This document shows positions 1,386-45,540 of a stretch of DNA of 64,000 bases, one piece after another. The notes under the pieces are model-generated. The model was not told the origin of the DNA. It saw only the letters and a list, made by a program, of their open reading frames with translations, and made no database searches. This DNA comes from Effrenium voratum (Eukaryota; Sar; Dinophyceae; Suessiales; Symbiodiniaceae), in the NCBI GenBank assembly GCA_963377175.1, contig CAUJNA010000576.1:62001-126000 (forward strand), given 5' to 3'. A program made the translations under genes and the position numbers. How positions within the stretch are numbered: the first letter of the stretch is position 1; each line of letters opens with the position of its first letter.

Positions 1386-1400
1386 CCCCAGCCCCCAGAA

Positions 1401-2150: not shown

Positions 2151-2230
2151 TTTTATAATCTAACAAGAAGGTTAAGACATTTAAATTAAACCTGAAACCC
2201 AGACCAGCCGACCAGCAACCCCCTAGCCAA

Positions 2231-2786: not shown

Positions 2787-2805
2787 CAGAAACAATGATT
2801 TCATG

Positions 2806-2841
2806 GTTTAATCATAATATTTAATTATAATATGATTAAAC
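2806..2841. terminator. Palindromic 3' hairpin
   Basis: Perfect 11-base arms, GTTTAATCATA (2806-2816) and TATGATTAAAC (2831-2841), enclose a 14-base AT-rich loop 20 bases after the TAA of the preceding gene. Mimivirus-type viruses end transcripts at hairpins, so this fits a giant-virus or virophage-style end signal. The match in function is inferred. Confidence 0.45.
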
Positions 2842-2978
2842 AGTGTAAACTTTTATAACCTTTCATTATACTATAATTTTAACCTGTAACAAAATTTCAA
2901 TGGCAAAACATATATCAAAACAAATACACCACCAACACCCCAGAACTTGATAACTACTAAAAGGGTTAACTCTTTCAA

Positions 2979-3062
2979 ATGAAAAAAATGTCGGCCCCCA
3001 GCCCAACAATGAACAAGGCGACGATTTACCCAAATGACTACCTTAACGAAAACGATAAATAA
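2979..3062 (+). CDS. Possible very short fifth gene or truncated gene at the island edge
   Basis: A 27-codon frame (ATG 2979, TAA 3060) at the right end of the AT-rich island. The sequence AACTACTAAAAGGGTTAACT begins 28 bases upstream and weakly resembles the promoter block of the two genes before it. Nothing in the short product is recognisable. It may be the start of a gene cut off when the element decayed, or chance. Confidence 0.15.
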   Translation: MKKMSAPSPTMNKATIYPNDYLNENDK

Positions 3063-3179
3063 GCTCCCCAACAACACCCTTTTAAAAACGAATAAGGTGG
3101 TTAATAGGTTTCAGATGAATGTAAAAAACATAACAGGGGACCATCAACAGGCTTCCCCTCAGCTTCACCCTTTCTTCCA

Positions 3180-3960
3180 TTTTTTCCCCCACCCCCCCCA
3201 ACCCCCCCCCCCCCCGCGCCTTTAATTGAATCATCACTTTTTTCAATCATCATGGAGGGAATTGCCCCCCCCCCCCCGCTACGTTTTAGGTGTTTTACAG
3301 GGATTAGTTTGCCCGTGTTTGAATCCTCACTTGTACCATGAGGCCTTGCCGCAGAGGAACTGATGACCCCCGGCTGCTTTTTTTTAATATTTGTTGGCCC
3401 TTTTTGAATCATCACTTCTTCAATCATCATGGGGGGGGGCTGCCGCCCCCCCCACCCCCCCGCTATTTGTTGGACTTTTTGCCCCTAATTGAATCATCAC
3501 TTTTTCGATCATCATGCGACCGCTACTTTTTAGATTCTTTGCCCTTAATTTTTCGATCATCATGGGGGGGGCTGCCGCCCCCCCCCCCAACCCCCCCGCT
3601 ATTTTTTAGACTTTTTGCCCCTGATTGAATCATCACTTTTTCGATCTACAGGGATTAGTTTGCCCGTATTTGAATCCTCACTTGTACCATGAGGCCTTGC
3701 CGCAGAGGAACTGATGACCCCCCCGCTGCTTTTTTAATATTTGTTTGGCCCTAACTACGTTTTACAGGGATTAGTTTGCCCGTATTTGAATCCTCACTTG
3801 TACCATGAGGCCTTGCCGGAGGAACTGACCCCCTCCCCCACTGTTTTTTTTAAATATAAATATGTATTTGTTTTGGCGCTTTTTGAATCATCACTTCTTC
3901 AATCATCATGCGGGGGGCTGCCGCCACGTTTTAGGTGTTTTACAGGGATTCGAGCCCACG
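3180..3960. repeat. C/G-tract satellite (first block)
   Basis: Degenerate tandem units of about 100-140 bp, each with a run of C or G, the words GAATCATCACTT and TTCGATCATCATG or TTCAATCATCATG, and GGCTGCCGCCCC. A second sub-unit, beginning TTTACAGGGATTAGTTTGCC and ending near CTGATGACCCCC, occurs three times (3294, 3649, 3763). It starts where the AT-rich island ends. The same satellite family returns at 19.33-20.24 kb. Open frames here are low-complexity artefacts. Confidence 0.75.
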
Positions 3961-23079: not shown

Positions 23080-24098
23080 CCTGGATTTGAAGAAGCTGAA
23101 TGTGGGGGTCACTCGCTACTTGTACTTGCCCGCTTTAGACTCAGCTCATGTACGCTGAGCTTGCAGGATACTGTTCGAATTCCCTGCGGCGGGCGGCGTG
23201 CTGATTCGCCAAGAGGTGGGAACTGAGCGGATTGACATAGAACGTTAAGCCCAAGACGCCGTCATCTTTCGAGGAATCTCCTTTGCAACGACAGCGCTTT
23301 TGGGTTCCAAGAGTTGCATGAAACAGTGAGTGCAATTGCGTTTCTGCCGGCATGCGGATGAAACCAACATGAAGGACATGTTATATATATATACACATTT
23401 ATACATATATTTGTACTTATTGAGACGCACGGACCCCGGTAACGTGAAGCAACGCTTCAGCGACAGGCCTTCCCGTTCCGCGCAGTCCAGCTGTCATTGC
23501 GCGAGCCCGAGTTGGGGTTGACCGAGCGTCTTCAAAGGCTTCCCCAAGCTTCCCACCGATTAATGCGCAAAAAGAGACCGGCCGGGGCGGGGGGTGGGGG
23601 AAGGGGGGGAAGCCTCATAATCTCCGGACTACTCAAGGAGGTTCAAGTGGGGCAATGATGGGTTTGAGGGGATTGCTTGGAGAAGGTGTGTCGGGTGGGC
23701 GAAGGGAGGAAGTCACGAAGCCACACCGAGGGCTCTAATGGCGGCGGATGACTTTGGAGGCAGCTTTGTGTATTTGGCCTGTGCCTGAGAGGGTTATCCC
23801 CGGGCTGTGGATGGGGTGAAAGCAGGGTCAAATGTTCAGAGGGCCTTGGGTTTTTTTGGATGGATAGGGGCGCAGGAATGAACCCTTTCGTGATAGCAGG
23901 GAACCTCCTCCTCTTAAAAGTCCTCGCTGCGCTATTGCAGAAGTGGACACTGACAGGTCCTGACGTGCGGGCTGAGCATTCTTTTCGCTGTGTACGCTCG
24001 CTTCTCAGCCGATGCTCCTTCGATGACTGTCGGTTTTCTGGGTCGAGGCTTGGACTGTCTAAACAAGTGGCTGCTAGCATCAATAGCGGAGCCAGAGT
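23080..24098. other. Spacer without a supported gene
   Basis: Mixed sequence with a short TATA tract near 23380. I see no joined coding frame and no RNA gene. Confidence 0.4.
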
Positions 24099-24227: not shown

Positions 24228-24492
24228 AGTTCTTTGAGCGCCCGGGCGCGCTGAGAACGCGTGGCTGATCTACAAGAATGGCGCCCGCTTTTTCACCTAC
24301 TTCTGGTCAAACGTCTGTGCCTCGGAATCTGAGTCACCTCAGGGCTAGCCGTGGTCAGCTGACCGGTCTCGCCAGCGGAGACCATGCTAGAGATGCAGCC
24401 CTTTATCACCTTGAAAGGCAGATGTACTGTTGGTGTTCGTTTGGTCTCCTCCAAAGCCCATCCAAAAAGTGGCTGCTAAGAGCAGACCTATA

Positions 24493-25117: not shown

Positions 25118-25276
25118 ATGGTGCTTTGCGCGGCAGCGGGCGCTTCGGCCGGAGAGATGGGGCTTGTAATTAAGCCACAGGTAAGGGAACTAAGAATGGT
25201 TACCCCAGGAACTATGGTTGCAACCTGCTATGACTAGGTGGGTTAAACCACACAAGCATGAAGAGAAGAAGAAGAA

Positions 25277-25308
<32 letters not shown>

Positions 25309-28300
25309 AGAAGAGGAGGATATGTGCAGGCCCTCAATTTCCGACAAGATGATTGGGGCTCATTTTTTTAATTTGAGCAAGGGCTGGGTCAGAATGGACC
25401 TGGGGTTTTCCTGGTGCTTGTGACCTGCGTTTATCTTGAACATGGGCAGGCGCATTTGGGCTCCGGAGCGAGCTGCGCAGGGCTGGGGATATGTACCCCC
25501 TACTTGGATGTTCAAGCCACTTAGGTTCCAACCATGGTAGTGTCTGGGGTTGGTTCCCTTAGACTGAGAAGCCTGGGTGTTACTAGAGTTATGTCCTACA
25601 GGTGGTTGAATATCCAACAGCCCCCCCCCCCTCCCAGTGGTTACACGGGAGAAGGGGTGGAGATGCCATAGTTGTGGTCCAAATCGCTCAGGAGCACCTG
25701 GCGGGGTGAGAGCTGATGTGCCTGTGATGCACATAGTGATTGATTTACCATGCGTGCATTTCTTTTTGGGACCAAAAGCATTCTTCATTGCTTCTGAACC
25801 TTTTGGTGAGTGGAACCCCTTTCTGGGTATCTTCCAAAAGTTTGCAGGAGGGCAAAATCAAGGAAGCGCTCAGACCAGTTCGGAGTAGCATGTGCATCGT
25901 GGCGAAAGTCGCGGTGTGTGAGGCGATCCGGCGTCAGAGTTGGCGAGAAGCTCTGAATTCGCTGGAGGCGCTGAAAGTGCGCAGGAGGCCTCTACCCTTC
26001 GATGTGTGCAGCGCCGCAATCGCAGCATGTGGGCGAGGCGCGCCGCTTGAGGGAGGGGCGTGTCCTGACACGCCCTCTCTTTGGCATAGTTGCTTGTGGC
26101 AATTTGTATAGGCACCTTTTCTTGGTGTGCTTTTGAGGTTGAGACCAGCCTATTTGTTTATCATATTTTTTCACCCTAAGCCTGTTAATATGTCATACAT
26201 CACCACGAATGCTTCTCCGGCGTTTGTCCCTAGTAGTTTCCAGCCATCTTAGACTTCGAGACGTCAGTGATTAGGGGGATTTGGGTTTGTCTGAAACAAA
26301 CTGAACCGGAAGATGACGAGTTTCCTTTTGGTTTCCTTTTTAACCAACTGCAAAGGTTCACACGAACAAAGACCCCCCTCCATTTACGACCCCCACCAAA
26401 AGTTTGGCTTTTCGCAAGGGATCAACGGACCACTGCCGTGACGTCAAGGGCCGTGATTTGGGGCCCCAGGCAAGTTCCACATGTTCTAGATCTGTCTTTT
26501 TCGAGGGTATATTTTTTCCCCGTTTTAGAAAGGATGCCAAAGGGAAAACCACCATTTGCAAAACGCCACTCCCTTCTTCTCGGCGATCAAGCTGGGGCGA
26601 CGTTTGTTCAGAGGAACAGCCTTTAGCCCAGCCTGGTTCTCATTGCACCTCCCGGCTTTTCAGTTAGCGGGGGAACGAATGATTCGACTCCCAACACTTT
26701 TTTTTGGGGGGATCTCCGGCCAGGCCAGCAGTGGCAGCGGGCCACGCTGCTGTTGGAGCAACACCTCGCCTCGGTGCCCGAGACCTCCGGCAACGTGGCC
26801 GTGATCGCGGCGGCCATCCACGCGTGCAGCGCGGGCTCGCAGTGGGCTCGGGGACTGCAGGCGGAGACTTTCTCGGTTTGAGGCATCCAAGACCTAGGGG
26901 TTTCTAGGGCCAGGCGTTTTTTGTTTTTCTTCTTTTTTCCTCTTCTTTTTTTTGGGGGGTTTTGGTGAGGCAACAAGGACCCTGAGCCCCTAGGGTCCCT
27001 AGGGGAACTCAAACGGAGTTTGGTTTCTGATGACGGATGGTGCTTCTTTCAGTGCTTCAAAAGGAGTTTGACTTCTAGACATGTCAAATCCAGGGGTTGA
27101 ACTGCCCCACCCAACTCACTTGCCCAAGCGGACCTTTTGACCTTTTAGCTTCCCCCTTGCGGGTCCATCTTTCGTCATGGCCCCAAAAGGTTAACCTTTG
27201 ATTCCTGGCTCCATTGGGCAAGTGTCTAGGGCTTGATTCCCCATTCTTTTCCGCCATCGTTCTTTCCAACCGGATCCGTTTTCCAGATCGGGTTTCCAGA
27301 GGTTTCGAAAGATTCGGATCAGAAATGGACTTGGGAGCTACCAGACAGTGGGCCAAGCAAAGCTGCCAGGTGTTGGCCGGACGGATGGGTTTGGTGCAGA
27401 ACGACTTCGTCTGCAGCGCGGCTGTGGGCGCCCTGCAGCGCGGCAGCCGCTGGCAGGAGGCGCTCCGGGTCTTCGCGGCTCGGCGGGTCGGAGAAAACGT
27501 GCGCCGGGCAAAGGTTGGGCCGCTTTTTTTTTTTTTTTTTTGGTTGTTTTGATGGGAAACCCAAACCTGCACAGGTTGTCAAAATGGGCGTGCGCGAAGA
27601 CGAAAGGACACGTTTTGGCACCTGAGCGCACATGTTTGGCTGGAGGCTCGGAACCAAAAGTTTTGGGGTTGGCTTGAAAGAAATGAGGTTGTTGTTTTTT
27701 TGTTGCCAGGGGGCATTTTGATGCACACCTCACTTGTTCCACGTGGTGTCCATTTGCCCTTTTGGAGTTTCGCCATGGCCCCACGCCAAACGCGAGTTGC
27801 GTATGAACAGCCCCGTTCGGTGACCCTCCCCAAAATCGAAGCTTCAAACTGGGAGCTCCCGAAAACCGGAAAACCCCCTCCAAAACACAGCTTTCCCAAA
27901 AGAATCCAACAACGACCACAACTCCAAAACAGCCCCCGCCCCCCCCGTACGGGATGTTTGTCAACAACTCAGGGCCTTTTCCAACGCCCAGCCAGCCGCG
28001 CGACTGAGGCGGCGTCCCCGTCCCCGCGGGGCCTCATCGCCTCCAACGTGGCGCTGCGCGCCTGCGAGGCGAGCTCGGCCTGGCATGTGGCGCTGCTTCT
28101 GCTGACGGGCCTGGGCTGCCGGGCAGACGTCGTCACCCTGCGGCAGAACCACAGGTAAATGTGTAAAACACATAATTATTAGGGGTTCGGGGTTTGGGGT
28201 TTGGGGTTTGGGTAACTTATCTCAACCCTTGCACAGGGGAACCTTACATCCACCTTACAGCCGTGCATCCTCACCATAAAACCCGCACGGAACCGTTCGG

Positions 28301-31300
28301 AAGGCCTCCTTCTTCATCCAAATCTATGGGTGAAACCGGGTCGTAATTTTGTATGGGGGTGTCTGTGGTGAGGGTACCACTTGTTTTGTGTGGCTTAAAG
28401 GAAAGGAGCCCAAGTGGAGTGTCTGTTTCGAGGGTACCGCTAGGTTGTGCCGTCTGAAAGGAAAAACAAGAGGACAACCACCATTTTATGGATCGATCCT
28501 CTACAAAGGAAAATGCCCGCCCCAGGGTTTGCAGGTTTTAAGCGTCGGGCCTTTTGAAGCGTCTTTTGTTTGGGTGAGCATTAGCCATGTTAGTACGTGG
28601 CTCTACTTTGGCACGACAAAATCATTCCGGCTGCCGCTCAAACACACAAGTTGTTGTAATGAACTTTCATGAGACTTGGTTGTTTCAACCAAGGGTTGCT
28701 CCATCCTTTGTTTTGCAAAGGGCCGGCCAATTCTGACTCCATGTTGTGTTACGAGGGCGGAGGGTTCCCGCAAATGTCCGCTCCTGTTTTGCTTTCAATC
28801 GGTAGGCACACCCGTTCAACTCAGCACTGCACACACGCCAGCCACCTGGTAAGCACATCTGCTCACGTGCGCCCGTGCAGCACTGCACACGCGGCATCCA
28901 CATCGTAAGCACATCCGTTCAACTGAGCCCGCCTAGCACTGCACACACGCCAGCCACATGGTTGGCACGCACAACCACGCGCACCCGTTCAGCACTGCAC
29001 ACACGCGAGCCACATGGCAAGCGCACCCGTTCAACTGAGCCCGCTCAGCACTTCGCACACACACACACACACGCACACCGGCCACATGGTAGGCACACCC
29101 GCTCATGCGCGCCCGCTCAGCGCTGCGCACACGTTTGTCAGATGGTAAGCACACCAGTTCAACTGAGCCCGCTCGGCACGACACACACGCCTGCGAGTTG
29201 GCAGGTGTCCATTGGTTTCTTATCTTGCTCTTGCGCGGGGGCGTATCAGCGTGGGCTGGAGTTTCGGGTTTTCCCGCCACTCGGTTTTGAAGCATGAGCA
29301 CTTAAAAGACACTGGAGTTTCAACAAACAAGTCTTGGAGTCATGTAGATACTATATGAAACTGGCAATGGTTGTTGGCTCGTGCTGCTGAAAGTGCTGCG
29401 TGCTATCAAGTCATGTGGGGTTTCTGTCGAAAAAACCAGAAAACGGGCGTGACCTTGTTTTTGGGGTATGCTTTTTTGGCATCCTCTCTTCCCCAAAATT
29501 TTGGGAAACCGACATTTGGAACACCGCCCTTTTTTGATGCCCCATTTTGGGGTATGCTTTTTTCGGGAAGACAACCCTTTTTTGACACCCTGTTTTTGAG
29601 GTATGCTTTTTGGGCGTCCTATCTCCCCCGAATTTTGGAAAATCCATGTTTGGAAGACAACCCTTTTTTGACACGTTATTTCTGGGGTGTGCTTTTTGGG
29701 CGCCCTCTCACTTCTCTCCCCGCATTGCGGGACAAGAGCGTTTGAAGCACCACCCCGTTTTGATACGTGTTTTTGGCGGGGGGGGGGGGGAGGTATGCAT
29801 ATTGGACATCCCCTCTCTTCCCCCAAAAGGACAAGATCTGAACCCAATCAAGTGTCGAGAGCCTAGGTCCGACCCCAGACTTGGTTCAGCAGAGAATCCG
29901 GCCTTGATTTCAGCGAGGAAAAGGCTGAACCCAAAACAGCTTCAGCAAGAGGGGCGGGATTGCAAAAAGGGGGGGCCGCCCCGGGAGGAACCCACAAGTT
30001 TTGCCGAGAAACAAGCCCAAACAAGTCTCGGCGCGGAACCCAGCATTGACCCCAAACAAGTTTCGGCGAAGAACCCGCCCGGCATTGACCCCCGAACAAG
30101 TTTCGGCGAGTGATCCAGCATTCACCCCAAACAAGTTTCGGCGGGGGATCCGGCGTTGACCCCCAAAACAAGTTTCGGCGAACAAGTTTCGGCGAGGGAT
30201 CCGGCGTTGACCCCCAAACAAGTTTCGGCGAGGGATCCGGCGTTGACCCCCAATCAAGTTTTGGCGAAGAATCCAGCGCTGACCCCCAAAGAAGTTTCGG
30301 CGAGCTCCTCAGCGAGTAGCTCTCCCAAATGTTGTCCAGCTTCTTGCGGGGCTATGGCTGTTTGCCGCTTCCGGGAGGCTTGGATTGGGATGGTGGAACG
30401 CTGATTCCTCTCCGAAACTGACCCTCCTTGCTAGCCCAAGTTTGGGAGAGCTACACCGAAAACCCCACCCAGATCTACCCCCAAGTTGATTTGGGCATAG
30501 AGGGAATTGGTTTCTCTAGAAATTTGGGGAGTTGGGGGGGGGGTTTGGGAGCTCACCGAAACTCTGGCGGTGCACCCCCTAACTTTCGGAGAGAAATCCA
30601 ATCTCTGGACCAATCTTGGACCAACAACATTTGGGAGAGCTACTCGCTGAGGAGCTCGCCGAAACTTCTTTGGGGGTCAGCGCTGGATTCCTCGCCGAAA
30701 CTTGTTTGGGGGTCAGCGCCGGGTCCCTCGCCGAAACTTGTTTGGGGTGACTGCCGGGTCACTCGCCGCAACTTCTTTGGGGGTCAACGCTGGGTTCCTT
30801 GGGGGTCAACGCCGGGTCACTCGCCGCAACTTCTTTGGGGGTCAACGCAGGATTCCTCGCCGAAACTTGTTTGGGGGTCAACGCCGGATCCCTCGCCGAA
30901 ACTTGTTTGGGGGTCAATGCTGGGCGGGTTCTTCGCCAAAACTTGTTTGGTTTCAACACTGGGTTCCTCGCCGAAACTTGTTTGGGTTCAATGCTGGATT
31001 CCTCGCCGAAACTTGTTTGGGGTCAGCTCTGGGTTCTCGCCGAAACTTGTTTGGTGTCAACGCTGGGTTCCTCGCCGAAACTTGCTTGGGGTCAAGGCTG
31101 GGTGTCTTGCCGAAACTTGTTTGGGCTTGTTTCTCAGCAAAACCTGTGGGTTCCTCCCGGGGCGGGCCCCCCTTTTTCAATCCCGCCCCTCTTGCTGAAG
31201 CTGTTTTGGTTTCAGGCTTTTCCTCGCTGAAATTGTTTGTGTCAAGGCCAGATTCCCAGCTGAACCAAGTCTGGGGTCGGACCTAGGCTGGCAGACACTT

Positions 31301-34300
31301 GATTTGGTTTAGATCTTGTCCTTTCGGGGGAAGAGAGGGGATGTCCAACATGCATACCCCCCCTCCCCCCCGCCAAAAAAACACACAATCAAAAAAACGT
31401 ATCAAAAAGGGGTGGTGCTCCAAATGCTCTTTTCCCACAATGCGGGGAGAGAAGTGAGAGGGCGCCCAAAAAAGCACACCCCAAAAACCAAACATTTAAC
31501 CAACCATGTGCCGATTTGCCAAAATTTCGGGGAAGAGAGGATGCCCAAAAAAGCATACCCCAAAAACAAGGTCATGCCCCCGTTAGCGGCCTCGCTGTTT
31601 TCAGGTTGTTTTCGACAGAAGCCCCACATGACTCGATGGCAGGCACAGCACTTTCATCGGCATGAGCCAACAACCATAGCCAGTGTCGGAAGGTAGTTCC
31701 ATGACTCCAAGACTTGTTTGCTAAACCTCCAATGTCTTTTTAGTGCTGCTCATGCTCAAAAACCGAGCGGCGAGAAAACACGAAACTCCAGCCAGCGCTA
31801 ACACGCCGCTGCGCAAGAGGAAGATCAGAAATCAATGGACACCTGCCAACTCGCAAGCGTGTGTGCAGTGGCGAGCGGGCTCAGTTGAACCGGTGTGCTT
31901 ACCATGTGGCTGGCGTGTGTGTTTGTGTGTGCAATGTTGAGCGGGTGCTTACCAGGCTGGCGTGCGTGCAGTGCTGAGCGGGTGCACGTGAGCGGGTGTG
32001 CTCACCATGTGGCTGTGCAGTTGAAGGGGTGTGCAAAACCATGTGGCCAACCGATTGAAAGCAAAAACGGGATGGACATTTCCGGGACCCCTCCACCCTC
32101 GTAGCACAACATGGAGTCAGAATTGGCCGGCCCTTTGAAAAACAAAGGGCGGAGCAACCCTTGGTTGAAACAACCAAGTCTCATGAAAGTTCATTTTGTG
32201 CTACCGGCTTTCCCGGGGGTCATAGTACCCCCCCCCCGCGATCCAAAATGACCTTTATGAACAAAGTCAATGGGTTTCGGCTGAGCTTCTTGCAGTGTTG
32301 CTTGCTGGGGTTTCCGGCTTACTTTTCCTTTTGACCATCGTGTCACTTTTTGCCGGGGTGGGATCCGTGCCCAGGTGAGCTACACCACCTGCGTCAACGC
32401 ATGCGCCTCCGCGGCCCAGTGGGCAGCGGGCCTGCGGCTCTTCTGGGACCTGCTGAAGCGCGCGCCCGTGGACAGCCTGGCGCCCAACGCGCTGACGTAC
32501 CTTTGGTGCATTTTGCCAAGGGATGTTAGGACTTCAGCTTTTTGCCAACTAGTGGGTTTTCCATTCAACCACTAAAAGTTCAACTTCTAGCAGGGGAGCA
32601 GAAAGCAACCGAGGTACGGCGCCGCGCTGAAGGCCTGCCAGAAGGCCGGCCGCTGGCGCGACGCGCTGAGCTTGCTGCGGGAGATGGCGGACGAGCGGAG
32701 GGTGAGCGCGGTGGCCTTGAATTCCGCCATGGACGCGTGCGTGAGGGGCAAGCGCTGGCAGCACGCGCTGGTCTTGTTCGAGGACTTCCGCCGGCTGAGT
32801 GTGGAGTCAGATGTCGTCTCATACTGCACGGCCGTGGGCGCCTGCGCGCAAGCGGCCTTGTGGCCGGCCTGCGTGGTCCTCTTGGCAGAGATGGTGGACG
32901 AAGACCTGGAGGTCCAGGTGGCGCGGAACACGGCGCTGGCTGCTTGTGAGCCTCACTTGAAGACCGACTAATTCAGACAGTCTGTCGTTCCCCTAAGTCC
33001 ATGTATCTCTAGGTCACTTTCCCAACTTGAAGTTCCAAGGCTGAACTTTCAGGCCACTTTCGGTCTTGGGTTCCCCTTGGTCCATTTTCAGTGATCACCT
33101 TGTTTCTTCCTGAGGAGAAGCAGAGCGCCTGGCAGCCGGCCCTCGGCATCTTGGGCTCGCGCCTCGAGGCCTCGGGCCCGGGCCGCGTGCTGGCGGCGCG
33201 CGCCTGCGCCGACGGCTCCGCCTGGCGCCACGCCTTGGCCCTGGCGGAGGACTCCGACTCGGACGCGGCGCGGGCGCGGGTGCTGGCGGCGTGCCTCAAG
33301 TCGGTGCCCTGGGCGCTGGCCCTGCGGATGATGGAGGCGGAGGAGGCGGCGGGGGCGGTGGATTTGATGAGCTGCAGCGCGGCGATGAAGGCGTGCCAGG
33401 TGGCCCGGCAGTGGCAGCGATGCCTGGGGGTGCTGGACATGGTGTCGCGGGGCCGGCTGCGGGTGGACACGGTGGCATACAACACGCTCTTGAGCAGCCA
33501 GGCTGCAGAGTACGTTTTTGGCCTGGTGCGGCTTGGTTCCCGTGATCCGCGCACAAGTTGCAAAGAGGGCCTTGGTTGTGGCCAATCATTCTTTGTGTGA
33601 TATCAAAATGGACTGCATGCGACATGAGTATCCAGTCACTTAGATAGGATTCGATCATCGCAAGAAACGGCTCCAAAGCCCAGCTTTTGATTTAGCCAGG
33701 CACCTCTCCAACACAGTTTGCCAGGGGAACCAACCTGAGGTTGCTTTTTTTGTTTGTTTGTTTTGGGTTCAGTGATTCACACTCAATTTTTAGGTGCCTT
33801 GCCATGGGCACCAGCAGGAGGATGCGGTTTTTCGTGTGGTTCAAACCCATTTCTTCGGAGGCTCGGGCCTTGACCGCGGATGTTGAGGCGCCATGGACGC
33901 CTGGCAGCAGATGCTGCAGGTTTTGCAGCAGATGCATGTTGCGGCGCTTCGGCCGGACGCGGCCAGCTGTGGGCTGGTGCTGGAGGCCGCCGGACGAGAC
34001 GCTGACACCGACGCTGGGCATGTCGTGTCTCTTGTTTGAGGCCAGCCCCAAACAAGAGCTTGAAGTTTTTTTGTTCTCCCTTCGCTTTGTTTCTCCTTTT
34101 TTGTTTTTTAAGAGAAATCAAAGGGAAACCATGAGTTGCCCCTGATTTTGAGACAAGTCCACGTGTGCCATGGTCGAAGTACCCTTTTACTTGGGGTCAT
34201 CAAACCTCTAACAGGGAATTTAGAAAACCACGGCCAGGATTGCCAATCATATTCCATGGTAGGTTTCGCTTGGCATGTTTGGGGAAGCATGATTCTTGTC

Positions 34301-35184
34301 TTTTGCAGCCCCGATCCAAGTCTTGATCAACCGATGGATCCCTTGAACGGGAATAGGGTTTGGTGGGGACTTGAAGGACCAACCAAACAAGAGTGTCACT
34401 CAGCAATCCTGAAATTTAGTCTCCTTTTTGCATGGAGGGTCTATTTTGCAATGCTTGTTTTAGTGTTGCGAAACCGTCAGAATCTCGCTTGCCCGCAAAT
34501 CCACCTTTTGACCTTCCGATGTCCGCCTCTTCGTTTATTTCGTCAGGTCGCCTCCCATTTTTTGCTTTTTGGCCAGTGATTCGTAAGACCCCAGGACTGG
34601 CGCCGAGCTCTGCATCTGCTGCGCTGCTTGGAGCAAACTGCGCTGTTCCCGGATCTGGTGGCCTACGACTCCCTGATCACGGCGCTGGCGAGAGCGGAGC
34701 AGCCGGAGCTGGGGCTCTTCTTCCTTGCAGAGTCGGAGCCAAGAAGGCGGCGGAGCTTAACAAAAAACAGAAGGTCAGGGGGGAAATATCGGGATCCGTT
34801 TTTTTTTTTTTTTTTTGCCTGGTTTTCTCGGGGTTGGTTTTTGGCATATATTCCTTTACTATATCCTGGGTTGATGTTCCATTCAAGAGGGGATCTTTCA
34901 TTTCGGGGGACATATTTACCAATCCGGGGTCAACATACGTAATTAGATTGTACTCATGGTGAGCCGGAGGTCCAGCATGGAGGGATGTGTGCTTTGGATG
35001 GGTATGCACCCCTGAACAAAAATCAGGCCCTTCCTTTGCGGTTTCCCTTAAAAACCCGGAGGATGTGTCCGGTTTCTTTGCCAGGTCGCCTTTGTCGCTG
35101 ATGTGGGCGCTGGCCGAGTTGTGCGTGGACGATGCGGAAGTGATCCACGGCGCATGCGTGGAGGCAGCCGAGGAGCTCACCTAA
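25118..35184 (+). CDS. PPR-array protein gene (5' part of a PPR-RluA locus)
   Basis: Exons: 25118-25180 (possible ATG exon), 25848-26037, 26724-about 26842, 27349-about 27514, about 27996-28131, 32375-32496, 32614-32947, 33115-about 33511, about 33888-33997, 34595-about 34740, and possibly 35085-35184. Together they encode about 10-12 degenerate pentatricopeptide units, each a helix pair with a [Asn/Tyr]-hydrophobic-Ala-x-x-Ala-Cys start and a Trp-x-x-Ala-Leu-x-Leu-Leu end. Examples are FDVCSAAIAACGRG, WQRATLLLEQ, NVAVIAAAIHACSAGSQW, VSYTTCVNACASAAQWAAGL, YGAALKACQKAGRWRDALSL and VAYNTLLSSQA. PPR proteins bind single-stranded RNA, usually in plastids or mitochondria. A leading peptide was not resolved. 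Many junctions join in phase (26037/26724, 28131/32375, 32496/32614, 32947/33115, 33997/34595). The 35085 exon ends in TAA at 35182, which may or may not be the true end. Confidence 0.8.
25261..25321. repeat. (GAA)n microsatellite
   Basis: About 20 GAA/GAG triplets inside a presumed intron of the PPR gene. Confidence 0.9.
27115..27232. repeat. Inverted-repeat element with CTTGCCCAA ends, copy 1
   Basis: CTTGCCCAAGCGGACCTTTT and GACCTTTT on the left pair with AAAAGGTTAACCTTTG and CCATTGGGCAAG on the right. It lies in an intron of the PPR gene. Related right halves occur at 16558-16613 and 39230-39285, and a full copy at 63845-63957. Confidence 0.6.
28658..32195. repeat. 3.5-kb fold-back (long inverted repeat) inside a PPR-gene intron
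   Basis: The left arm (28658 to about 30342) and right arm (about 30615 to 32195) are reverse complements with many small differences, around a centre of roughly 270 bp. The outermost matched word is AATGAACTTTCATGAGACTTGG in two parts (28658 onward, and 32174-32195 on the other strand). Each arm holds, from outside in, a segment with GGCCGGCCAATTCTGACTCC, (CA)-rich 60-bp repeats, words such as GGGGTATGCTTTTTTGG, a GACAAGATCTGAACC segment, and tandem 33-36-bp units (CCCAAACAAGTTTCGGCGAG type). Repeat copy numbers differ between arms. The whole lies in the 4243-bp intron 28132-32374. Long frames across it follow the tandem units and are not genes. Confidence 0.85.
32497..32613 (+). repeat. 117-bp introner-like intron carrying dispersed repeat R2
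   Basis: The PPR reading frame continues from CTGAC (32496) to GTACGGCGCC (32614). The removed 117 bp begins GTAC and ends GAG, and GTAC is repeated at the start of the next exon, like a target-site duplication. The body from 32543 has TTCCATTCAACCACTAAAAG and TTCTAGCAGGGGAGCAG, the R2 repeat also found at 18541, 53091, 59441 and 63391. Thus one repeat copy accounts for nearly the whole intron. Confidence 0.65.
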
Positions 35185-35694
35185 GCCGAAAGCGAGTCGA
35201 CGTTTTTTTTTTTTCTCTCTCCCCTCTCCCACCCAGCATGTTGTGGATGGACGATAGGTGGAATCAAAAGGACACTCGGGAAACTGGGGACGCTTCAACT
35301 GGAAATCCCCCAAAAATTGGTCTTTTGGCCGATTTTGAATCAAGGTGCCAAAGGTCAACCCTTGTATGCCCGGGTGCTTTGGGCAAGCGAGTTTCGCTTT
35401 TTCCCTTGCAATTGTTATGGTTTGCAGATGTGCCGGGAGGGTTCCACATCCATTGGAAGAGGCCCTTCTCGATGCTGTCGACGCTGGATGAATTCACCCT
35501 CATTGGTGGGCCGATTCAAGAGGAAAACGTGGCGAGCGTTGACGTAACGACTTTGGCTTCTTCCCTTGTCCCATCCAACGACGTCACAAAACTTTTGATT
35601 GACAATCGACCGGCTGGCGTTTTCTTACTGGCGTGCAGGCGTCCTTCGTGCTTTTTTTCTTCGCTTGGCGTTCCTTCGCTCCAGGATTTCCGGC

Positions 35695-38600
35695 GTGGGC
35701 TTTGGTCGCCCGGCGACTTGTCCCAGTTCCTGTGGTGCTGCACCGTGCTGGGCGCTCTTCCTGGCCCTCTCAGGGGCCAGGTGGCCCAGCCACCTGGACG
35801 GAGCTCATTTTTGTTCTTCAAAGTTTCCTTTGGAAGAACCAGCCTGAAGAGGGCGCCCACGAAAAGATCATGTCATGTCCATTTCCCCTGATGGCCGCCA
35901 CAGGGCATGAGCATTGGCAAGCTTCCAACAAGTCACAGCCCTATGAGGTTCGGGCAACACTTTCAGTTGCCTGTGGTCAGTTTCGGAGGGGCAATTTCAC
36001 AGGGCGACGCATGCTCGTTTTTGCCATGTGCCGTATGTTTTGAAACATGGCTCCGGTTGTCCTCGCCGCCGAAACCGTGGTTCCAACCTGCTGAGGAAGG
36101 TGCCAATTCCCCTTACGAAGGTGCCATGTCCGCTACCTGGGACTGAGATTGACTAGGATAACTTCCTTCAGTCATGATCCAGACTTAACCACTCAAAGCG
36201 AACACCCTCCTCCCCATTTGTCCACCAGGGCTTTCTGAAAATTCGGACTTAACATATGTCCGCACCTGTGGGCCAATTTTAGGTGAGTTTCGTTTTGTTT
36301 CTGCATTGAAAACCCCATAGCCTTGCTTAAGTGCGAGGGAACTGTGGATGGACGAAATCCTGCACCATTGAAGAAACCCTAGAATGATGATTCTCCCGTA
36401 AATACCAAGCAAACAATGGTTTCCCATGGTTTCTTAGGTGGATTTTGTTCATCCGCAGTAGGTCCCCCTGTTTCGAACCGCGGGGCCAAAAATCGGATCC
36501 CCGGCTCCAGGGCCCTGGTGCCACACCTGTCGACGCTCTCCGCGCGGCAGCTGGCGGAGACGGCCGTGGGCGCGGAGGCGGAGTTGCTGCAGGCCGTGCA
36601 GGCGGGCGCCGCTCGGCGTTTTTTTTTTTTTTTGCGCGGCAGAAAGCCCATGTGGCTATGGGTCAAAAAATGGTACCCAACATGGGTTGCCCTGGTAAAT
36701 GGAAACATGGACCAAAAACCCACGGTCTTTTGGTAGTTTAATTTTGACCCATACCCTGTGTTTCAATAGGGATTTGTACTTGTACCCCCGCAACATGGGG
36801 TTTTCCGTGGGCGGCAGGTTGAAAGCCAATGCTCCAAACACAGATCCACTTGGCATGTGCCGAGGTAGGCTCGTTTGGGGAGGGGTATTGGGTTCCAGGT
36901 GTGGACCGCCCGTGGACTGCACCCGAGTGGTTCATCCCACAAGGAAGTCTGGGAGTCAACAAATGGAACCCGGTGCCCACACCGCCAAAGCTTGTGCGAA
37001 TTTCTGTTTTGAGAGCTTCGGCTATGTTTTTGGGCCACTGGAGGTCTGGGGCACGTGTCCTTGTGTTTTTTCTCCATGTTTATTCATGCCACCGTTGTTT
37101 GAAGAAGCCTTGTTTCCTCCCTAGAGCCTACTTTTGATTTGAGCCCACTCGCTAGAGGCAAAGGGATGCCAAACAATGGCATTGACACTGACACGCAAAC
37201 ACGGTCTTTGTTTATTTGTTGTTTTTTGCTTCTTGCTTGCTGGCTTTCTGGCTTGCTTGCTTTGCTTGCTTTGCTTGCTTTGCTTGCTTTTCTGGCTTTG
37301 CTGGCTTTCTGGCTGGCTGGCTTGCTTGCTTGCTTGCTGGCTTTTCTGGCTTTGCTTGTTTGCTTGCTGCCTTTGCTTGCTGGTTTGTTTGTTTATTTTG
37401 TCTGACTGTTCTGTCCGTCATTCTGTTTGTTTGTGTTTGCCGGTGTGTTTTGATTAGACTTTTTTGGGTTCTTTTGTGTTAAATTTTTGTGTCATTCGTT
37501 GTTCGATTTGGTTTGGCTTCGGGGTAGGCCACATGTGTGCAGGCTGCAGCGCTCGCCCTTGACCCGCAGACCCTGGCGCTGGCGGCATCTGGCAAGTATG
37601 CCGCTCGCCCTCAGGGCAGGGGCGGGGTTGGGGGGGGGGGGAAATACTCACTTCCTGCGTTCCCGGACTTGACACTTTTTGGGAAGACCATGTTAGTGGT
37701 AAATCAAAAGTTTGCACTTTTTGGGGATGAGGAATGGAATAACCCCAAGAGAAACCATCCGACGAGTGGTTTCCTGAACGGGGACCCCTGGGTTCATCAC
37801 CAATCCATTAATTCCCTACTGAGCACCAAGGCTCAAACTAAACGTTTCTCAACTTTTTGCCTTCACGATTTTCCCTCGTCTTCACATTCAACCTGTTTGC
37901 AGACAGTCTAAGTATTGCCAAGTAATTATTGCCGCAAGCTTCTAAGAACCTCTTCCAAGAAGGCTCTGAGAACTCTTCTTGGGTTGTGGGGGCGAACCCT
38001 CGGTTTTCACCTTTCGTGTTTACAGTTTTGGTCACTCACTTTCTCATGTGTCTTAACAGGCAAAGAACAGCCCTAGAGAAATCCTACAAAACCAGCCCAA
38101 GCCTGGGGCTAAACAGATGGGCGTCGTTTTTCTGCCAAAAGGCACGTTCCGGCCTTTTTTTTTGTTTTTCTGTTGTTGTTGTGTCTATTCCTGAAAGAAC
38201 GCTCCACATAAAGGAAACCCCTTGAATCAGCCCAACAGTGGTGTGGAGAACCACAAAAAGGTGACAAACCAAACTATAGGGGCTGGCTGGGGAGAGCGCA
38301 AAAAACGAAGAAGAAAGAAACAATAGGACGCCCTTGTTCTTATTTTTTTGTGGGTGACCAGAATCGACGGGAGGTGCTGGGCATTCTCTTCGCGGCTTCC
38401 CTCCGCCGGGTGTTGCGTTCGGACTTTCTGGAGCTCACGCGGGCGCGGCTTTTGGCGGTCGGCCGCGGCTTGGATGCCGATGAGTTAACCTCTGACGTCC
38501 AGCTCGGAGCGGCGGAGGCGGGGCGGCACACTGAAGCCGGGGGGCGGAAAAGGGGGCAAGGCAAGTCGAGTTGGAAGGCATCAAACGGGCCCTCAGAAGA

Positions 38601-41600
38601 CCTTTTTGTTGAATGCGGTCCAGCACCTTTCAATGGAGGTCCTAATTTAACAACCAAAAAAACAAACAAACGGGTAATTGGAGGATAGTAAGGGACAATC
38701 CCAGCCATAAATGGGTGCGGCCGACTTGTCAATTCCTGGGTTCTGCATAGACCATTTTGATACCGGGTTTTGAGTATGACTCAAACTAACGGCCCAATGT
38801 GGGTGGCTTGAGCCATGGGTTTCAACCAGGGTTGCATGGGGTAGACCCAAGGTGCTGCGTACAGAAGTCCAGCGGGAGACGGGCGCAGATGCCTTCGTGC
38901 AGATGGATTTGTGCGACCGGGCGGTGGTCTACAAACCCCAGGAGCGGGTCCATGGGTAAAGGGAGGAAGTGGCAAGGCTGGGGCGGCCTTCAAAAGGGTC
39001 CAAGTCAAAGTGTTGTTTTCAGAAGTGTGGTTGACTTTTCCTTTCAAGGATTTATTTTTGGGAACCTCTTTGATTAATGTGGTTTTGCGACGGATGGAAG
39101 CAGTGCGGAGAACCCCGCAATGGCGAGTATACCCCCTAATCCTGGGTTCCCATACTTGCCCCCAAGGCGAATGGACCTGACATGACCCTGCAGTTTTCAC
39201 CTTTTTTTTGTTCCCATTTTCGGTCGTGGCCGTGGCCCCAAAGGTGATCAGCTTTCATTCCTGGGTCCCTTGGGCAACTGAGTCAATCAAACTGGGGCGC
39301 CAAAAAATCAGCCAGTCATTAATGTGGAATCCTTAGAGCAGGCGGAGGGACTGCTCAACATGCATCAGCCCCCCTGCCTGATTCCGCACAAAACCAACCC
39401 ACCAAGCCCCAAGCTAGCCCCAAACCTGTGCAATTGTCAGCGACGTGGCCAGCCCAACGCCACCTGGGATTGGCTCCTGCGGGCCCAGACTACCGTTTGT
39501 GAAGCCAAAGGGAATCCTGCATTTCAAGTGACATTGCAAGTAGTCAGAGGGATGGTTCAGGTTGGCATTGCAGAAAGTGTTACTTTCCCACAACCATGCG
39601 GGTCTGTCCTTTTTGGGCGGCCCCCCGAAGTGATGGTTCTCCTTTTTCGCGTCCCTTTAAAACCAGAACCAAAAAAAGGAGCAACAACACAAATGTCTCA
39701 CCACCTCCAAAAAGAAGACGAGCCACCCGTTTTTTTTCTTTCATTTTCTTTCTTTCTCTTTTTCGGCCCTCGTTCTCTTTCGCCAGGACTGGGAGGTCTA
39801 CGGAAACCACACCTCCCAGCAGCTCTCGGCCTTTGTCGCCTCCGCCTGGCCGGGGCAAGTTTCGGCGCCGATTCTGCGGGACCGAAACCACAACCGGGGG
39901 TTCCTGCACCGCCTGGACGTGCCCAGCTCCGGGCTGATCCTCTTCGCCAAGACCTTCGAGGCAAAGGAAGCGGGGGGACAAAACCGCTGATGACTTTCAG
40001 AGGAGGTAAACCGACCAGCTGATTGAATTGTCTTGTGGGGTGCTTCTCCCTGGGCTTGTGGGGGAATCAGACCACTTTTGGAGGGGAAGACCTTCGAGGC
40101 GGCCTTTGCCTTTTTGCTCGCGAAAAGGGCGGTGGATGAGCCGCTTTGCTCGTGGATCTCACAGGATGTTTTTGTTTCTCCCCGGTTGGTCCTTGTTTAG
40201 CAATGTTTTAGCACCCTTTGAATATATCCTATAGGGGTGGATCCACAGATTCGCCACCTCCAAACCTTTTTCCGAAGTGCCAGTGCCCGTTTTGGATGGT
40301 TCTGCCTGTGCAGCGGGGGAGCTACCAAACCAAGAAGGAGAATCAGGGACGATGCGGATGAGCCTGGCAATTTACCTTCGGAGGATTTCCTTGCGATTTT
40401 TGGAGGTATCTTTCGGGGTGCTCGCTCAGTGTTGCATCAAGCTGGGTTGGGGAGTTTCCAGTACGGAAACTATTTGGATTTACCGTCCAAGACGAAAAAT
40501 CCGATGTGAACATGAGGTTTGACATCCATCAGAGCAATAAGCGGGTTCCAGCTGGCACGAAATCATGTGTGTAGCATCCTGGAATCCATTGGTCACAGCC
40601 CATTCAAGTCACTTTCAAACCGGGCAAGTGAAGGTTATCCAGTGACAACTTTCATTTGTTCGGAATCGGAACCTCCAGAATTCATTTCGGTGTTTGTTTG
40701 ATTTCCCTTTAAAGCCTCTCAAAAAGGGGAATTTAAATGAGGAATCCGCAAAATGGTGGTTTCCCCCTTGGTTTTCCTGGAGACCAACCCGAAAATTGGT
40801 CCGAACTCCACAACAGACAAGGCCAGATTGTTTTTTCCACAACCTCCACTTGGCTGGTTTTCCTGGAGACCAACCCCAAATCGGTCCCAACTCCGAAACA
40901 GACGAGGCCATTTTGTTTTTCACAACCTCCAGTCGGCTTCCGTTCAATCCAAAGACCGGTGCCTGGTGATGGTTTGAATTGGTGGTTTGGATTTGGACCT
41001 GCCCCCCTCACTTGGGGCCCCCAAAAAACACCGCCGAGGCTCCAAGTTTCCCAAACCGGAGTTTTCGCGGGCCGCCGCCGCGTGCGAGGCCTTCTACGAC
41101 CTCCAAGTGCAGCTCTGCGCCGGCGAGGTGCTGCGGGAGTACGCGGCGCTGTGCCACGGCTGGGCGCCCTCCCGGGCGGTGACGGCACAGCAGGCGGGGA
41201 ATCGTTGGGGAGAGAGACGCGGTGCTCTTAACACACACGCAGACACACACACACACAAACATGTATATGTATATATATATATGTATAGAGGATAAATATG
41301 TCATCTATGCGCACATGCACCCAAAAAAAACATTTTGTTCTTTCAACAAAGGCATCTTCTGCTGGTCGCGACCCTGCTTTGACTGTAGTCAGGTGGAGGG
41401 CGTGGCGCGCCCAGCTCGGTCCGGGGGCCGGGGCAAGCCCAGCCGCACCCACCTGGCGCTCGCCGCCCGAGACCACGCCCTCGGGGCCAACCGAAACCGG
41501 GCGCTGAGCGAGGTGGTGCTGCGCCTGGGCACGGGGCGGAAGCACCAGATCAGGAGAGGAGCCGAACACTTACAGTTTTGCATCTATTGATGGAGCCCAA

Positions 41601-42855
41601 CAGATGCACAAGGAACCCAACAGATGTTTCCTTGACAGCCCAAACTTATTTCTGAATAGACGCAGTAGATTCCTTGTGGTTTCCCTTTAAGTTTTAAGTT
41701 TTGGGCCAACCCCAAACATCCCCAAAGATCCTCTTTTTGAGGGTTTCCTCCAAAATGTGGCTTGTGATTTGGTCTCCCTTTTAGTAAGCCATCTAGTTTT
41801 CCCTTGAAACCAGGCCCAAAATTGGTGGGTGTCGTTCTGGTTTCCCTTCTGTCAAGCCAACCCCAAAGAGGGTACACTTAACACTTTCTCAGGGAATCAC
41901 CGTTGTGATTTTGGGAATGGTGATTGATGTTTAGGGGTCATTCCCTTCCTTGCTGAGAAGCAACATCAAAAACTAGGTAACTAGGCCCTCGAACCTCCAA
42001 GAAATGACCAGAGAAGGCTGGATACTAGTGCTGTTTGGTGGAGGTCTTGGCAGTGCGTAGTACCGCAATTCTGACCCAAGACACTGGGAGTCGTGACATT
42101 TGAAGGACAGAAAGGTTTACGCACATGCACACGTGAATGCATGCCTGACACTCACACCTATGTATATATATATATATGTGTGTATATATATATATAGATA
42201 TGTATACATGCGTACATATGTACGTCTATCACCCCGGATTGCTGCATTTGCCAGTCAGAAACCGTGTGGCCCGTCCAAAGCTTTGGTTTTCTCTAGGAGT
42301 CATTTGGCCCACGTGGGCCATCCAGTGGTGCGGGACGGGCTCTACACCAGCCGGGCCACGTTTCAGGAAGATCTGGAGCTCTGCGCCAGGCGGGGGGTGC
42401 TGGCTGGATCCATGGAGTGTCCTTAACTTACTGGTGCTGGGAATGAGCCTAGGGATTCTTTTAAAGGAAGCCAGAGAAGATGGTTTGTAGGGGCCAGCAA
42501 GCGAAGCTGAGGGGATAGTCCCAACCAAAATAGGTGCACATATCGGCCCTTTTGATTCTTTGCATGGTTTTGGGTAGACGAATTGATTTTGACCCGATGT
42601 CGAGCCACCTGATCGGCTTCCGCATTTCGGGCGGCCAGGAACTGGTTGCACCGGCAGCGCCTGACCTTCCGAGACGTGGAGGGCAGGCGGAGGGACGTCT
42701 TTTGCCCATTGCCAGCGGATCTCAGCGCCTGGAGAGCCAAAAGAAGAGCGCCTCTTTTGACTGGGCCCCCTCAATCGGGCCATCTGTCCTTTGGGACCTG
42801 GGTGCAAAGCGGCCCCTCCCCGCATCCACGGAAGGAAGGAAACAATCGCTTTTGA
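35695..42855 (+). CDS. RluA-family pseudouridine synthase with N-terminal helical (OPR/FASTK-like) region; probably continuous with the PPR gene
   Basis: Helical exons: 35695-about 35815 (SPGDLSQFLWCCTVLGALPG), 36511-about 36618 (LVPHLSTLSARQLAETAVGA), 37543-about 37594 and 38362-about 38560. Their Leu/Trp pattern resembles OPR or FASTK/RAP-type repeats. The catalytic part joins exactly: 38852-38947 (AVVYKPQER), 39787-39960, 41089-41178, 41393-41553, 42297-42389, 42639-42855 (TGA 42853). It contains HRLDVPSSGLILFAK, with catalytic Asp encoded at 39916-39918, then LREYAALCHGW, LRLGTGRKHQIR, SHLAHVGHPVVRDGLY and LHRQRLTF. These are the conserved blocks of RluA-type enzymes, which isomerise uridine to pseudouridine in rRNA, tRNA or organelle RNA. 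No S4 domain is seen. The donor at 41554 is GA. The C-terminal 20-30 codons may be intronic read-through. Confidence 0.85.
36342..36458. mobile_element. TIR element (MITE), copy 3
   Basis: 117 bp, CTGTGGATGGACGAAATCC to TTTTGTTCATCCGCAG, followed by TA but preceded by AA, so the left duplication is altered. It lies just before an exon-like segment (36511). Confidence 0.8.
37205..37400. repeat. CTTGC/CTTTG-type simple repeat
   Basis: T-rich CTTGCTTTGCTTGCTGGCTT units. The hydrophobic Leu/Ala/Cys frames it produces are artefacts. Confidence 0.9.
40771..40940. repeat. 85-bp tandem duplication in an RluA intron
   Basis: GGTTTTCCTGGAGACCAACC recurs at 40771 and 40856, followed in each copy by TCGGTCC or TTGGTCC, AACTCC, AACAGACRAGGCCA and ACAACCTCCA. 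Two copies with roughly 10-15 percent difference. Confidence 0.75.
41226..41292. repeat. (AC)n-(TA)n microsatellite in an RluA intron
   Basis: ACACACGCAGACACACAC is followed by TATATGTATATATATATATG. A similar TATATA tract lies at 42160-42215 in the next intron. Confidence 0.85.
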
Positions 42856-43730
42856 AAAGGACGTTCAAAAGAATTGCGGCACCGAGAAATGGGTTCGCCC
42901 CGGGTTGCTTCCTCCAGAAGCGAAGGTTTGAAGGTTTGCCTTGCAAAGGGGGGACGCCTCCAATCAAAATCAACCAAGAGTTTATGAGTCCCATAGGGTA
43001 AAGAAAAGAATCTCAAAAAATGAAACACTGGTGGAGGGTCGAAACACAGGGCGCCTTCTTGGAACCGGGGAAAAATCTTCATCTGCCGCCTCAGGGGTCG
43101 GGAGAGAGAATCCGCGGCAAATCTTCGGAGTGGGAGGGGTCACCCGGGATCTGAGGAAAGCCCAGCGTCCAATCCCTCAACTCTGGTTTGGATTGGGGGT
43201 TTGGAGTTTGGGGGGCAGCTTCCCCATTTGGCAGCAAAGGGTTTGGGGTTCAGATCCCCACCCATTCAGACCCAGCCAGGCGGGGGGCCCGGCAGTCCGC
43301 GCACGCAAAAAACAGTTTTATATGCTTATCTAGGTGGGGTACATTCGTTTGGGGTACACATGCAGTAATGTGCTCGACCTGTATCGTACATTTGGCTCAA
43401 GCCAAGGGCTGCGCTTCATGCCATGAAAGCGCTGTATGCCCTGGGGGATGCTGTTAGACGCTCCGGCGGCACTGTGGCGTGGGGTGGGGTAGCAGGAATC
43501 ATGATTGGCTGGGGTACCTGGGGTTAGACCGCCCTTACCACACAAACTCACTTGGAAAGGTGTTGAACACCCCAAAGGTTCCCTATGAATCCCCCGACGT
43601 AGACCCCAAATGCACCAGCCCCTGTTTATTAAGAGGGGGGTGGGGCCCCTGGCAAACGTGGAGTTTTCTATGAATCCCCCCCCAAAAAAAATAAAAAACA
43701 CCAGCATAGACCCCAGATAGCACACCACGG
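42856..43730. other. Spacer downstream of the RluA gene
   Basis: Frames here are open but show no motif. Runs of G/C occur near 43290 and 43675. A composite of eroded repeats is likely. No gene called. Confidence 0.35.
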
Positions 43731-44060: not shown

Positions 44061-44121
44061 CCCACACACCATAACGTGGGAACATCATGACGATACACCA
44101 GCCACGAACCGTTACACGCGA

Positions 44122-45540
44122 ACAGCATCCACCAGCACCCCAAACATGCCCCCTAGCACCCGGTACAACCAAAGCAGCATCCACCCGCGCCTCAAACTGC
44201 ATGCCCCTTAGCGCCCGGCCGTCAAGCTCGCAAAGCAGCATGCGCCAGCACCCCAAACTGCATGCCCCCTAGCCGGCCGTCAAGCTCGCGAAACAGCATC
44301 CACCAGCACCCCAAACTGCATGCCCCCTAGCACCCGGCCAGCTCGCAAAACAGCATCCACCAGCAGCCCAAACTGCATGCCCCCCAGCACCCGGCCGTCA
44401 AGCTCGCAAAACAGCATCCACCAGCACCCCAAACTGCATGCCACTAGCACCCGGCCAGCTCGAAAAACAAAACAGCATCCACCAGCACCCCAAACTGCAT
44501 GCCCCCAGCACCCAGCCGTCAAGCTCGCAAAACAGCATCCACCAGCACCCGAAACTGCATGCCCCCGAGCACCCGGCCGTCAAGCTCGCCGGCCAGCTCG
44601 CAAACCAGCAGCCCCCCACCCGGCCGTCAAGCTCGCAAAGCAGCATCTACCAGCACCCCAAACTGCATGCCCCGTAGCACCCGCAAAGCAGCACCCACCA
44701 GCACCCCCAACTGCATAGCACCCGGCCGTCAAGCTTGCAAAACAGCATCCACCAGCACCCCAAACTGCATTCCCCCTAACACCCGGTCGTCAAGCTTGCA
44801 AAGCAGCACCTACCAGCACCCCAAACTGCATGCCCCCTTGCACCCGGCCGTCAAGCTCGCAAAGCAGCACCCACCCCCAAACTGCATGCCCCCTAGCACC
44901 CGGGCGTCAAGCTCGCAAAGCAGCATCCACCAGCACCCCAAACTGCATGCCCCCCATGCCCCCAGCACCCGGCCGTCAAGCTCGCAAAGCAGCATCCACC
45001 AGCACCCCACAATGCATGCCCCCTAGCACCCGGCCGTCAAGCTCGCAAAGCAGCACCCACCAGCACCCCAAACTGCATGCCCCCCAGCACCCGGCCGTCA
45101 AGCTCGCAAAGCAGCACCCACCAGCACCCCAAAGCCGCATGCCCCCTAGCACCCGGCCGTCAAGCTCGCAAAACAGCATCCACCAGCGCCCCAAACTGCA
45201 TGCCCCCTAGCACCCGGCCAGCTCGCAAAACAGCATCCACCAGCAGCCCAAACTGCATGCCCCCCAGCACCCGGCCGTCAAGCTCGCAAAGCAGCATCCA
45301 CGAGCACCTCAAACTGCATGCCCCCCAGCACCCGGCCGTCAAGCTCGCAAAGCAGCACCCACCAGCACCTCAAACTGCATGCCCCCTAGCACCCGGCCCT
45401 CAATCTCGCAAAGCAGCATCCACCAGCACCTCAAACTGCATGCCCCCTAGCACCCGGCCGTCAAGCTCGCAAAGCAGCATCCACCAGCACCTCAAACTGC
45501 ATGCCCCCTAGCACCCGGCCCTCAATCTCGCAAATCACTT
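44122..45540. repeat. 61-bp tandem array, about 23 copies
   Basis: The unit contains AGCATCCACCAGCACCCC, AAACTGCATGCCCCCTAGCA and CCCGGCCGTCAAGCTCGCAA. Some copies have deletions. 61 is not a multiple of three, so a frame cycles through three peptide registers (MPPSTRPSSSQSS, KLHAP and ACPLAPGRQARK type) and several long open frames appear on both strands. There is no start context or splice pattern to support translation. Confidence 0.9.

Follow-up and report, generated by a model that had tools for sequence, protein, structure and literature searches.

In plant PPR-DYW editing factors, an RNA-reading array is followed by a C-terminal base-modifying enzyme, a cytidine deaminase, and these factors form a large paralog family. 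PPR-SMR, PRORP and PPR-TGM proteins likewise combine P-class PPRs with a C-terminal enzyme domain, there an endonuclease, a metallonuclease or a methyltransferase and in no case a pseudouridine synthase (passages of PMC12787238). Here we consider a locus of the symbiodiniacean dinoflagellate Effrenium voratum (assembly GCA_963377175.1, 1.156 Gb), located in a 64-kb stretch of contig CAUJNA010000576.1 (positions 62,001-126,000, hereafter the window), which fits one nuclear gene whose product joins a PPR array, through an OPR/FASTK-like helical segment, to an RluA-type pseudouridine synthase in the place that the deaminase has in the DYW factors. Catalytic fold and motifs are common to the dinoflagellate family and RluC, RluD and human RPUSD1/RPUSD4, but the latter have an S4 domain or a short N-terminus where the dinoflagellate protein has PPR and OPR-like arrays. 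A functional parallel is offered by the human module in which FASTKD2, a FASTK-type protein, works with the RluA-type synthases RPUSD3/RPUSD4 and with TRUB2, as separate proteins rather than as one polypeptide with PPRs (passages of PMC5377769). Within the same genome, loci L007 and L016 combine an OPR/FASTK-like array with an RluA domain of the same clade and have similar linker-like repeats; no PPR repeats were found in either, and they possibly represent the ancestral form.

A review of RNA-binding proteins in dinoflagellates, published in 2026, lists PPR-SMR, DYW and PKS-linked PPR proteins, mentions putative methyltransferase ones and views the main dinoflagellate PPR pool as being without extra domains, and the string 'pseudourid' is absent from its main text (PMC12787238). 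Another PPR review contains 'pseudouridine synthase' once (PMC13326993). In the literature searched for PPR with pseudouridine synthase, RluA, dinoflagellate and OPR (titles, abstract openings and passages, with few subscription journals and no bioRxiv), the fusion is undescribed; database entries among the relatives, for instance 'Pseudouridine synthase RsuA/RluA-like dom...', indicate that the domain is annotated and do not imply discussion of the family. An earlier reading of the window from its letters alone (the sequence-only reading) had likewise known of no characterised example of the architecture, but in one respect it has to be widened: the locus is not a lone case. PPR-RluA fusions apparently constitute a large, undescribed family in dinoflagellates, probably with two origins.

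The gene and its domains

Reading frames and homologs together place 19 exons on the forward strand between 25,848 and 42,855 of the window (Table 1), which join into one open frame of 937 modelled residues. In the joined model Pfam finds PPR_2 (3.4e-16, 59.5 bits against a curated cut-off of 30) and, at residues 689-840, PseudoU_synth_2 (PF00849; 4e-16, 60.0 bits against a cut-off of 26.8), with no DYW family among the matches up to E 1, nor at 0.01. A PPR profile of the family counts 12 repeats in the protein, and a six-frame scan of the window gives 10 matches (domain E < 0.05), all at 25.85-34.73 kb and none elsewhere in the window, the profile seeds in both cases including repeats of the window model. 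The sequence-only reading, which had PPR exons running to 34.7 kb and helical OPR/FASTK-like exons following them, is borne out in both parts, the latter lying at 35.09-38.48 kb. A profile built from the linkers of 49 relatives, with the window protein excluded, matches residues 547-670 of the window protein at 51 bits, and also recognizes long OPR/FASTK-like arrays that accompany the same kind of RluA domain without PPRs, namely P0062 (1e-49) and L007 (3e-32), both outside its training set; P0048 and P0055, also matched, were inside it, the match to L016 is weaker (5e-10), and the best of 200 shuffles of L007 reached 0.005. Pfam itself reports FAST_1 in P0062 at 1e-11 and no FAST_1 match in the window protein; run on the raw translated frames, it detected PPRs and two RluA pieces and missed the linker.

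The RluA part carries the KP, HRLD, REY and TGRKHQIR motifs in exons N-Q; in RluA enzymes HRLD holds the catalytic aspartate, REY the tyrosine and GRKHQIR the basic residue. The closest solved sequence is RluD (1e-13). A full RluA core had been predicted to reach 42.86 kb: the exons do extend from 38.85 to 42.86 kb, with the stop codon at 42,853-42,855, but the fold itself ends at ~42.75 kb. The structure model of a paralog (pLDDT 90), compared by VIA-align 2, matches RNA-bound designer PPRs and RluC/RluD; this comparison barely covered residues 418-564 of the model, so the linker fold lies outside its scope.

That the three parts belong to a single protein, as had been proposed, is indicated most directly by intronless paralogs in the same genome. 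Locus L010 (contig C3569, 415,096 bases) holds PPRs, linker and RluA in one uninterrupted frame of 876 residues and L009 does so in 708 residues, while L007 has its OPR-like array and RluA in a single frame; the RluA domain of the L010 frame is identical to that of P0006 of Effrenium voratum. Protein P0002 of Durusdinium trenchii, the nearest relative by tree (SH-aLRT 97 in a tree of the type to which the window protein belongs, 94/76 in a tree of two types, both described below), is collinear with residues 49-883 of the window protein (40% identity, E 1.7e-159). Because of the intronless paralogs and the collinear P0002, we conclude from these comparisons that the PPR-RluA fusion is not a splicing artefact. 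The homolog searches also yield fused open reading frames from TRINITY transcript assemblies, with names of the form 'ORF type:comp...': P0041 (992 residues, PPRs and RluA) of the first type, and P0206, P0210, P0211 and P0214 of the second. No spliced-leader relics were found ahead of the intronless frames on their own strand. Just 3' of the window gene, 13 nucleotides at 43389-43401 differ by two mismatches from the 3' end of the dinoflagellate spliced leader, possibly by chance.

Exon boundaries were drawn first by eye, guided by the splice habits of dinoflagellates (acceptors AG/G; donors GC, GA or GT), and then checked by tblastn with 81 homologs; most of the exons were confirmed in this way, and exon J2 was added. 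Phase is kept across 18 of 18 introns, with GC donors in 11, GA in 4 and GT in 3, and with AG/G acceptors; since the boundaries were picked in expectation of these same signals, the signals alone are weak evidence. The gap of 353 nucleotides between the PPR and linker parts is the fifth smallest of the 18 introns, in agreement with the earlier remark that spacing across the parts resembles that within them, and the longest intron, 4,246 nucleotides, lies within the PPR part. The model is least certain in exon L and at its two ends, at the first exon and over the final few dozen residues. Exon L, the weakest exon, has no tblastn match to any of the 81 homologs, and the best matches of exons K and N are weak.

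Table 1. Exons of the modelled PPR-OPR-like-RluA gene, in window coordinates
Exon	Position	Strand	Content	Basis
B	25848..26037	+	first modelled PPR exon	tblastn of homologs, gene model
C	26724..26860	+	PPR	gene model, PPR profile scan
D	27370..27507	+	PPR	homolog tblastn, gene model
E	28009..28128	+	PPR	homolog tblastn, gene model, PPR profile scan
F	32375..32496	+	PPR	gene model, PPR profile scan
G	32614..32947	+	PPR, strongest repeats	Pfam on frames, homolog tblastn, PPR profile scan
H	33115..33501	+	PPR	gene model, PPR profile scan
I	34595..34731	+	last PPR, in phase into linker	homolog tblastn, PPR profile scan
J	35085..35172	+	OPR/FASTK-like linker	P0002, 69% over 26 residues
J2	35685..35788	+	OPR/FASTK-like linker	P0002, 45% over 29 residues
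K	36511..36601	+	OPR/FASTK-like linker	P0002, best E 0.056
L	37543..37584	+	linker, doubtful; direct joining of K to M possible by phase	gene model
M	38374..38475	+	linker end	P0006, 1.9e-5
N	38852..38941	+	RluA start, VVYKP motif, no start codon at 5' edge	P0062, best E 0.052
O	39787..39960	+	RluA, HRLD including catalytic aspartate	motif, homolog tblastn
P	41089..41175	+	RluA, REY motif	motif, homolog tblastn
Q	41393..41553	+	RluA, TGRKHQIR motif	motif, homolog tblastn
R	42297..42389	+	RluA	homolog tblastn, gene model
S	42639..42855	+	RluA end and stop codon	homolog tblastn, gene model

The modelled 937 residues begin with exon B, which may not be the true first exon of the gene. A start at 25,118, where the sequence-only reading had begun the gene, is rejected, as no homolog supports an exon there by tblastn. 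Farther upstream, 23,738-23,791 and 24,256-24,321 are 83% and 91% identical, in the same order, to the annotated N-terminus of P0002; these values far exceed the 40% found elsewhere and are therefore read as a shared repeat element, probably absorbed into the Durusdinium trenchii gene model.

Several features of the surrounding DNA are recorded here for completeness. A foldback-like element (28658-32195), with nested inverted repeats of up to 173 nucleotides and tandem repeats of 35-36 nucleotides, fills the 4.2-kb intron between exons E and F. On the 3' side of the gene, 44121-45534 is a tandem array of 61-nucleotide units with a strong GC skew, and the GC fraction of positions 1-4000 is 0.32-0.39, against 0.50-0.60 across the rest of the window.

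Family size and origins

Relatives of the window protein, which we call the first type, were collected with a linker-RluA query taken from an 889-residue model without exon J2; the search admitted lengths of 0.55-1.75 times that of the query, a range that favours long proteins, and scored the best 8000 candidates. In the resulting lists, which are made up of cluster representatives, isoforms and partial models among them, 60 of the 81 relatives have at least three PPRs, as do 10 of the 12 proteins named Effrenium voratum. An alignment of 50 chosen first-type proteins (A2) has PF00849 in all 50 and PPR_2 in 47, and the catalytic residues of HR.D and GR.HQIR, present in most of the 81 relatives, are invariant in it. 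When the genome was searched with RluA, at least 66 exon-level matches were obtained, ordinary RluA genes counted in, and same-strand PPR matches lie upstream of RluA in L012, L013, L035/L053, L040 and L047.

A second type is found in the same genome at L008 (1-2112; G000:C3445), in which PPRs precede an SRLD-type RluA domain without an OPR-like linker. A search from the second-type protein P0079 returned 66 proteins, 34 with at least three PPRs, and the linker profile matched none of these 34. Pooling both searches, which have P0079 in common, 93 of 146 distinct proteins have at least three PPRs. Ankyrin-type Pfam domains stand beside RluA in the first-type proteins P0030, P0069 and P0074 and EF-hand-type ones in the second-type P0222 and P0224.

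Two trees bear on the origins. The first-type tree has as its rows 76 of P0001-P0079, five first-type loci of the genome itself, four of five ordinary RluA genes and L008, leaving out three with a short RluA domain, P0080 and P0081. The two-type tree, rooted at its midpoint, has 78 chosen rows; most first-type rows were left out, as were P0241, P0242, P0249 and P0220, being near-copies or fragments. In the two-type tree the first type forms one clade (100/100) and the PPR-bearing second-type proteins are nested among PPR-less relatives (98/93, 97/84, 100/99). These sequence relationships indicate that RluA probably acquired PPRs on two or more occasions, the alternative being many losses. Within the first type, OPR-like-RluA rows that have no PPRs are among the early branches, with several such forks weakly supported, and this early branching suggests that OPR-RluA was ancestral and that PPRs were added afterwards. 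An apicomplexan model, P0080 of Eimeria stiedai, has linker-like helical repeats (13.5 bits) before a broken-looking RluA domain, perhaps hinting that OPR-RluA is older than the dinoflagellates.

Proposed mechanism, alternatives and significance

We consider PPR-addressed, guide-free pseudouridylation by a PPR-OPR-like-RluA protein the best explanation of the locus, and one that is reasonably likely to be right. In this scheme, the PPR array would bind a single-stranded RNA site with each repeat taking up about one nucleotide, the OPR/FASTK-like segment would set the spacing and perhaps add RNA contacts, and the C-terminal RluA domain would isomerise a uridine placed close to that site on its 3' side; paralogs with differing arrays would serve differing sites. 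PPR arrays lie along single-stranded RNA with the C-terminus towards the RNA 3' end (passages of PMC12787238), and for this reason the RluA domain would be expected on the 3' side of the RNA stretch that is bound, with the linker determining how far away, like DYW domains, which act 3' of their PPR array. What the analysis establishes is the architecture, the fold as modelled for one paralog, catalytic motifs that are intact, an expanded family and, among close relatives, constraint on the code positions. Catalysis, the 3' geometry, the targets and an organellar location we infer.

The code-position constraint comes from handpicked pairs of relatives, those of the first type from clades of the first-type tree and the second-type and distant pairs likewise by hand. 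Among close relatives, the two positions of the 35-residue repeat that carry the RNA code, 5 and 35, come out as the top two of the 35 when conservation is corrected for chance; some of the repeats drawn in the bootstrap are not independent of one another, and a nearly invariant tryptophan column is excludable by the test's own rule. The description "programmable-looking", given in the sequence-only reading, therefore suits the family, its code positions being conserved, more than this copy, whose pairs are mostly non-canonical.

Several observations weigh against the scheme and have to be set beside it. The window repeats have the 5/35 pairs SS AF SR NY TS GA ND CQ NR VR SD TD, and by the land-plant code few of them would designate a particular base. 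In the second type the code positions rank 2 and 6, a weaker signal, from nine pairs of which one, P0207-P0209, has no PPRs and contributed nothing; in distant pairs the position-5 signal is absent, and in an earlier version of the test the filter left only three repeats for the window-P0002 pair, one of them with position 5 equal. PPR presence in the first-type tree is patchy, with 17 changes, at least 9 of them forced by starred branches; partial gene models may inflate this patchiness, as PPR absences are unreliable. Three further upstream stretches beside RluA exons were inspected, and PPRs occur in that of L053 and in neither L054 nor L055. By simple composition, the N-termini of 14 of 16 relatives have no strongly hydrophobic stretch and there is no common presequence. 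Lastly, Chlamydomonas Maa2 is reportedly an RluA relative that acts without catalysis.

Maa2, a pseudouridine synthase relative said to be needed for trans-splicing, sets a precedent for an alternative that we regard as unlikely, namely that the RluA domain has been retained to serve as a module for RNA binding or folding, with catalysis dispensable and a role in processing, splicing or ribosome assembly. The human module of RPUSD3, RPUSD4 and TRUB2 with FASTKD2, which controls the 16S rRNA level (passages of PMC5377769), points in the same direction. A purely structural role would not require the invariance of HR.D and GR.HQIR throughout A2 and their presence in most of the 81 relatives. Slightly less likely again, in our judgment, is a pseudouridine synthase of the ordinary rRNA or tRNA kind that is tethered through its PPRs to one ribosomal precursor, with no addressable site-specific family. 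The classical substrates of RluA enzymes are rRNA and tRNA (see also passages of PMC5377769), and the poor code of the window array would suit such an enzyme; the many paralogs per genome do not, nor do arrays that vary in length and code and yet conserve their code positions between close relatives.

The possibility that adjacent PPR and RluA genes were misread as one draws on the frequency of one-way gene arrays in dinoflagellates, but is nearly refuted by the intronless fused paralogs, the alignment collinear across the junction, the fused P0041 and the 5' edge of exon N, where the RluA portion, as had been noted from the letters, lacks an evident start codon. A decaying copy, no longer made or used, is the least credible alternative: the code pairs are degenerate and the homolog-search matches reach at most 59% identity to the query, an annotated protein of the locus itself therefore not being recognised among them, but over 17 kb the 19 exons are all open and in phase, and the catalytic motifs are intact.

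If PPR-addressed pseudouridylation is how the window protein works, its relatives might together amount to a guide-free, sequence-addressed pseudouridylation system of dinoflagellates, a counterpart of PPR-DYW editing in which each genome has at least a dozen PPR-RluA writers, every one with its own site, and which evolved by two or more separate fusions; this wider proposal seems to us about as plausible as its opposite. Deaminases, nucleases and methyltransferases are all known as domains joined to PPRs, and no account of a pseudouridine synthase joined to them was found in the literature searched. The sequence of ordinary cDNA is unaltered by pseudouridine, and editing surveys would therefore miss such a layer. 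If active, the family would represent, in algae of ecological importance, a class of pseudouridine writers that are protein-only and sequence-addressed, and it would offer a natural scaffold for directed pseudouridylation. In one coral symbiont, pseudouridine-synthesis genes are reported to be enriched among heat-induced transcripts (PMC12743301), a heat response on which the PPR-RluA family might bear.

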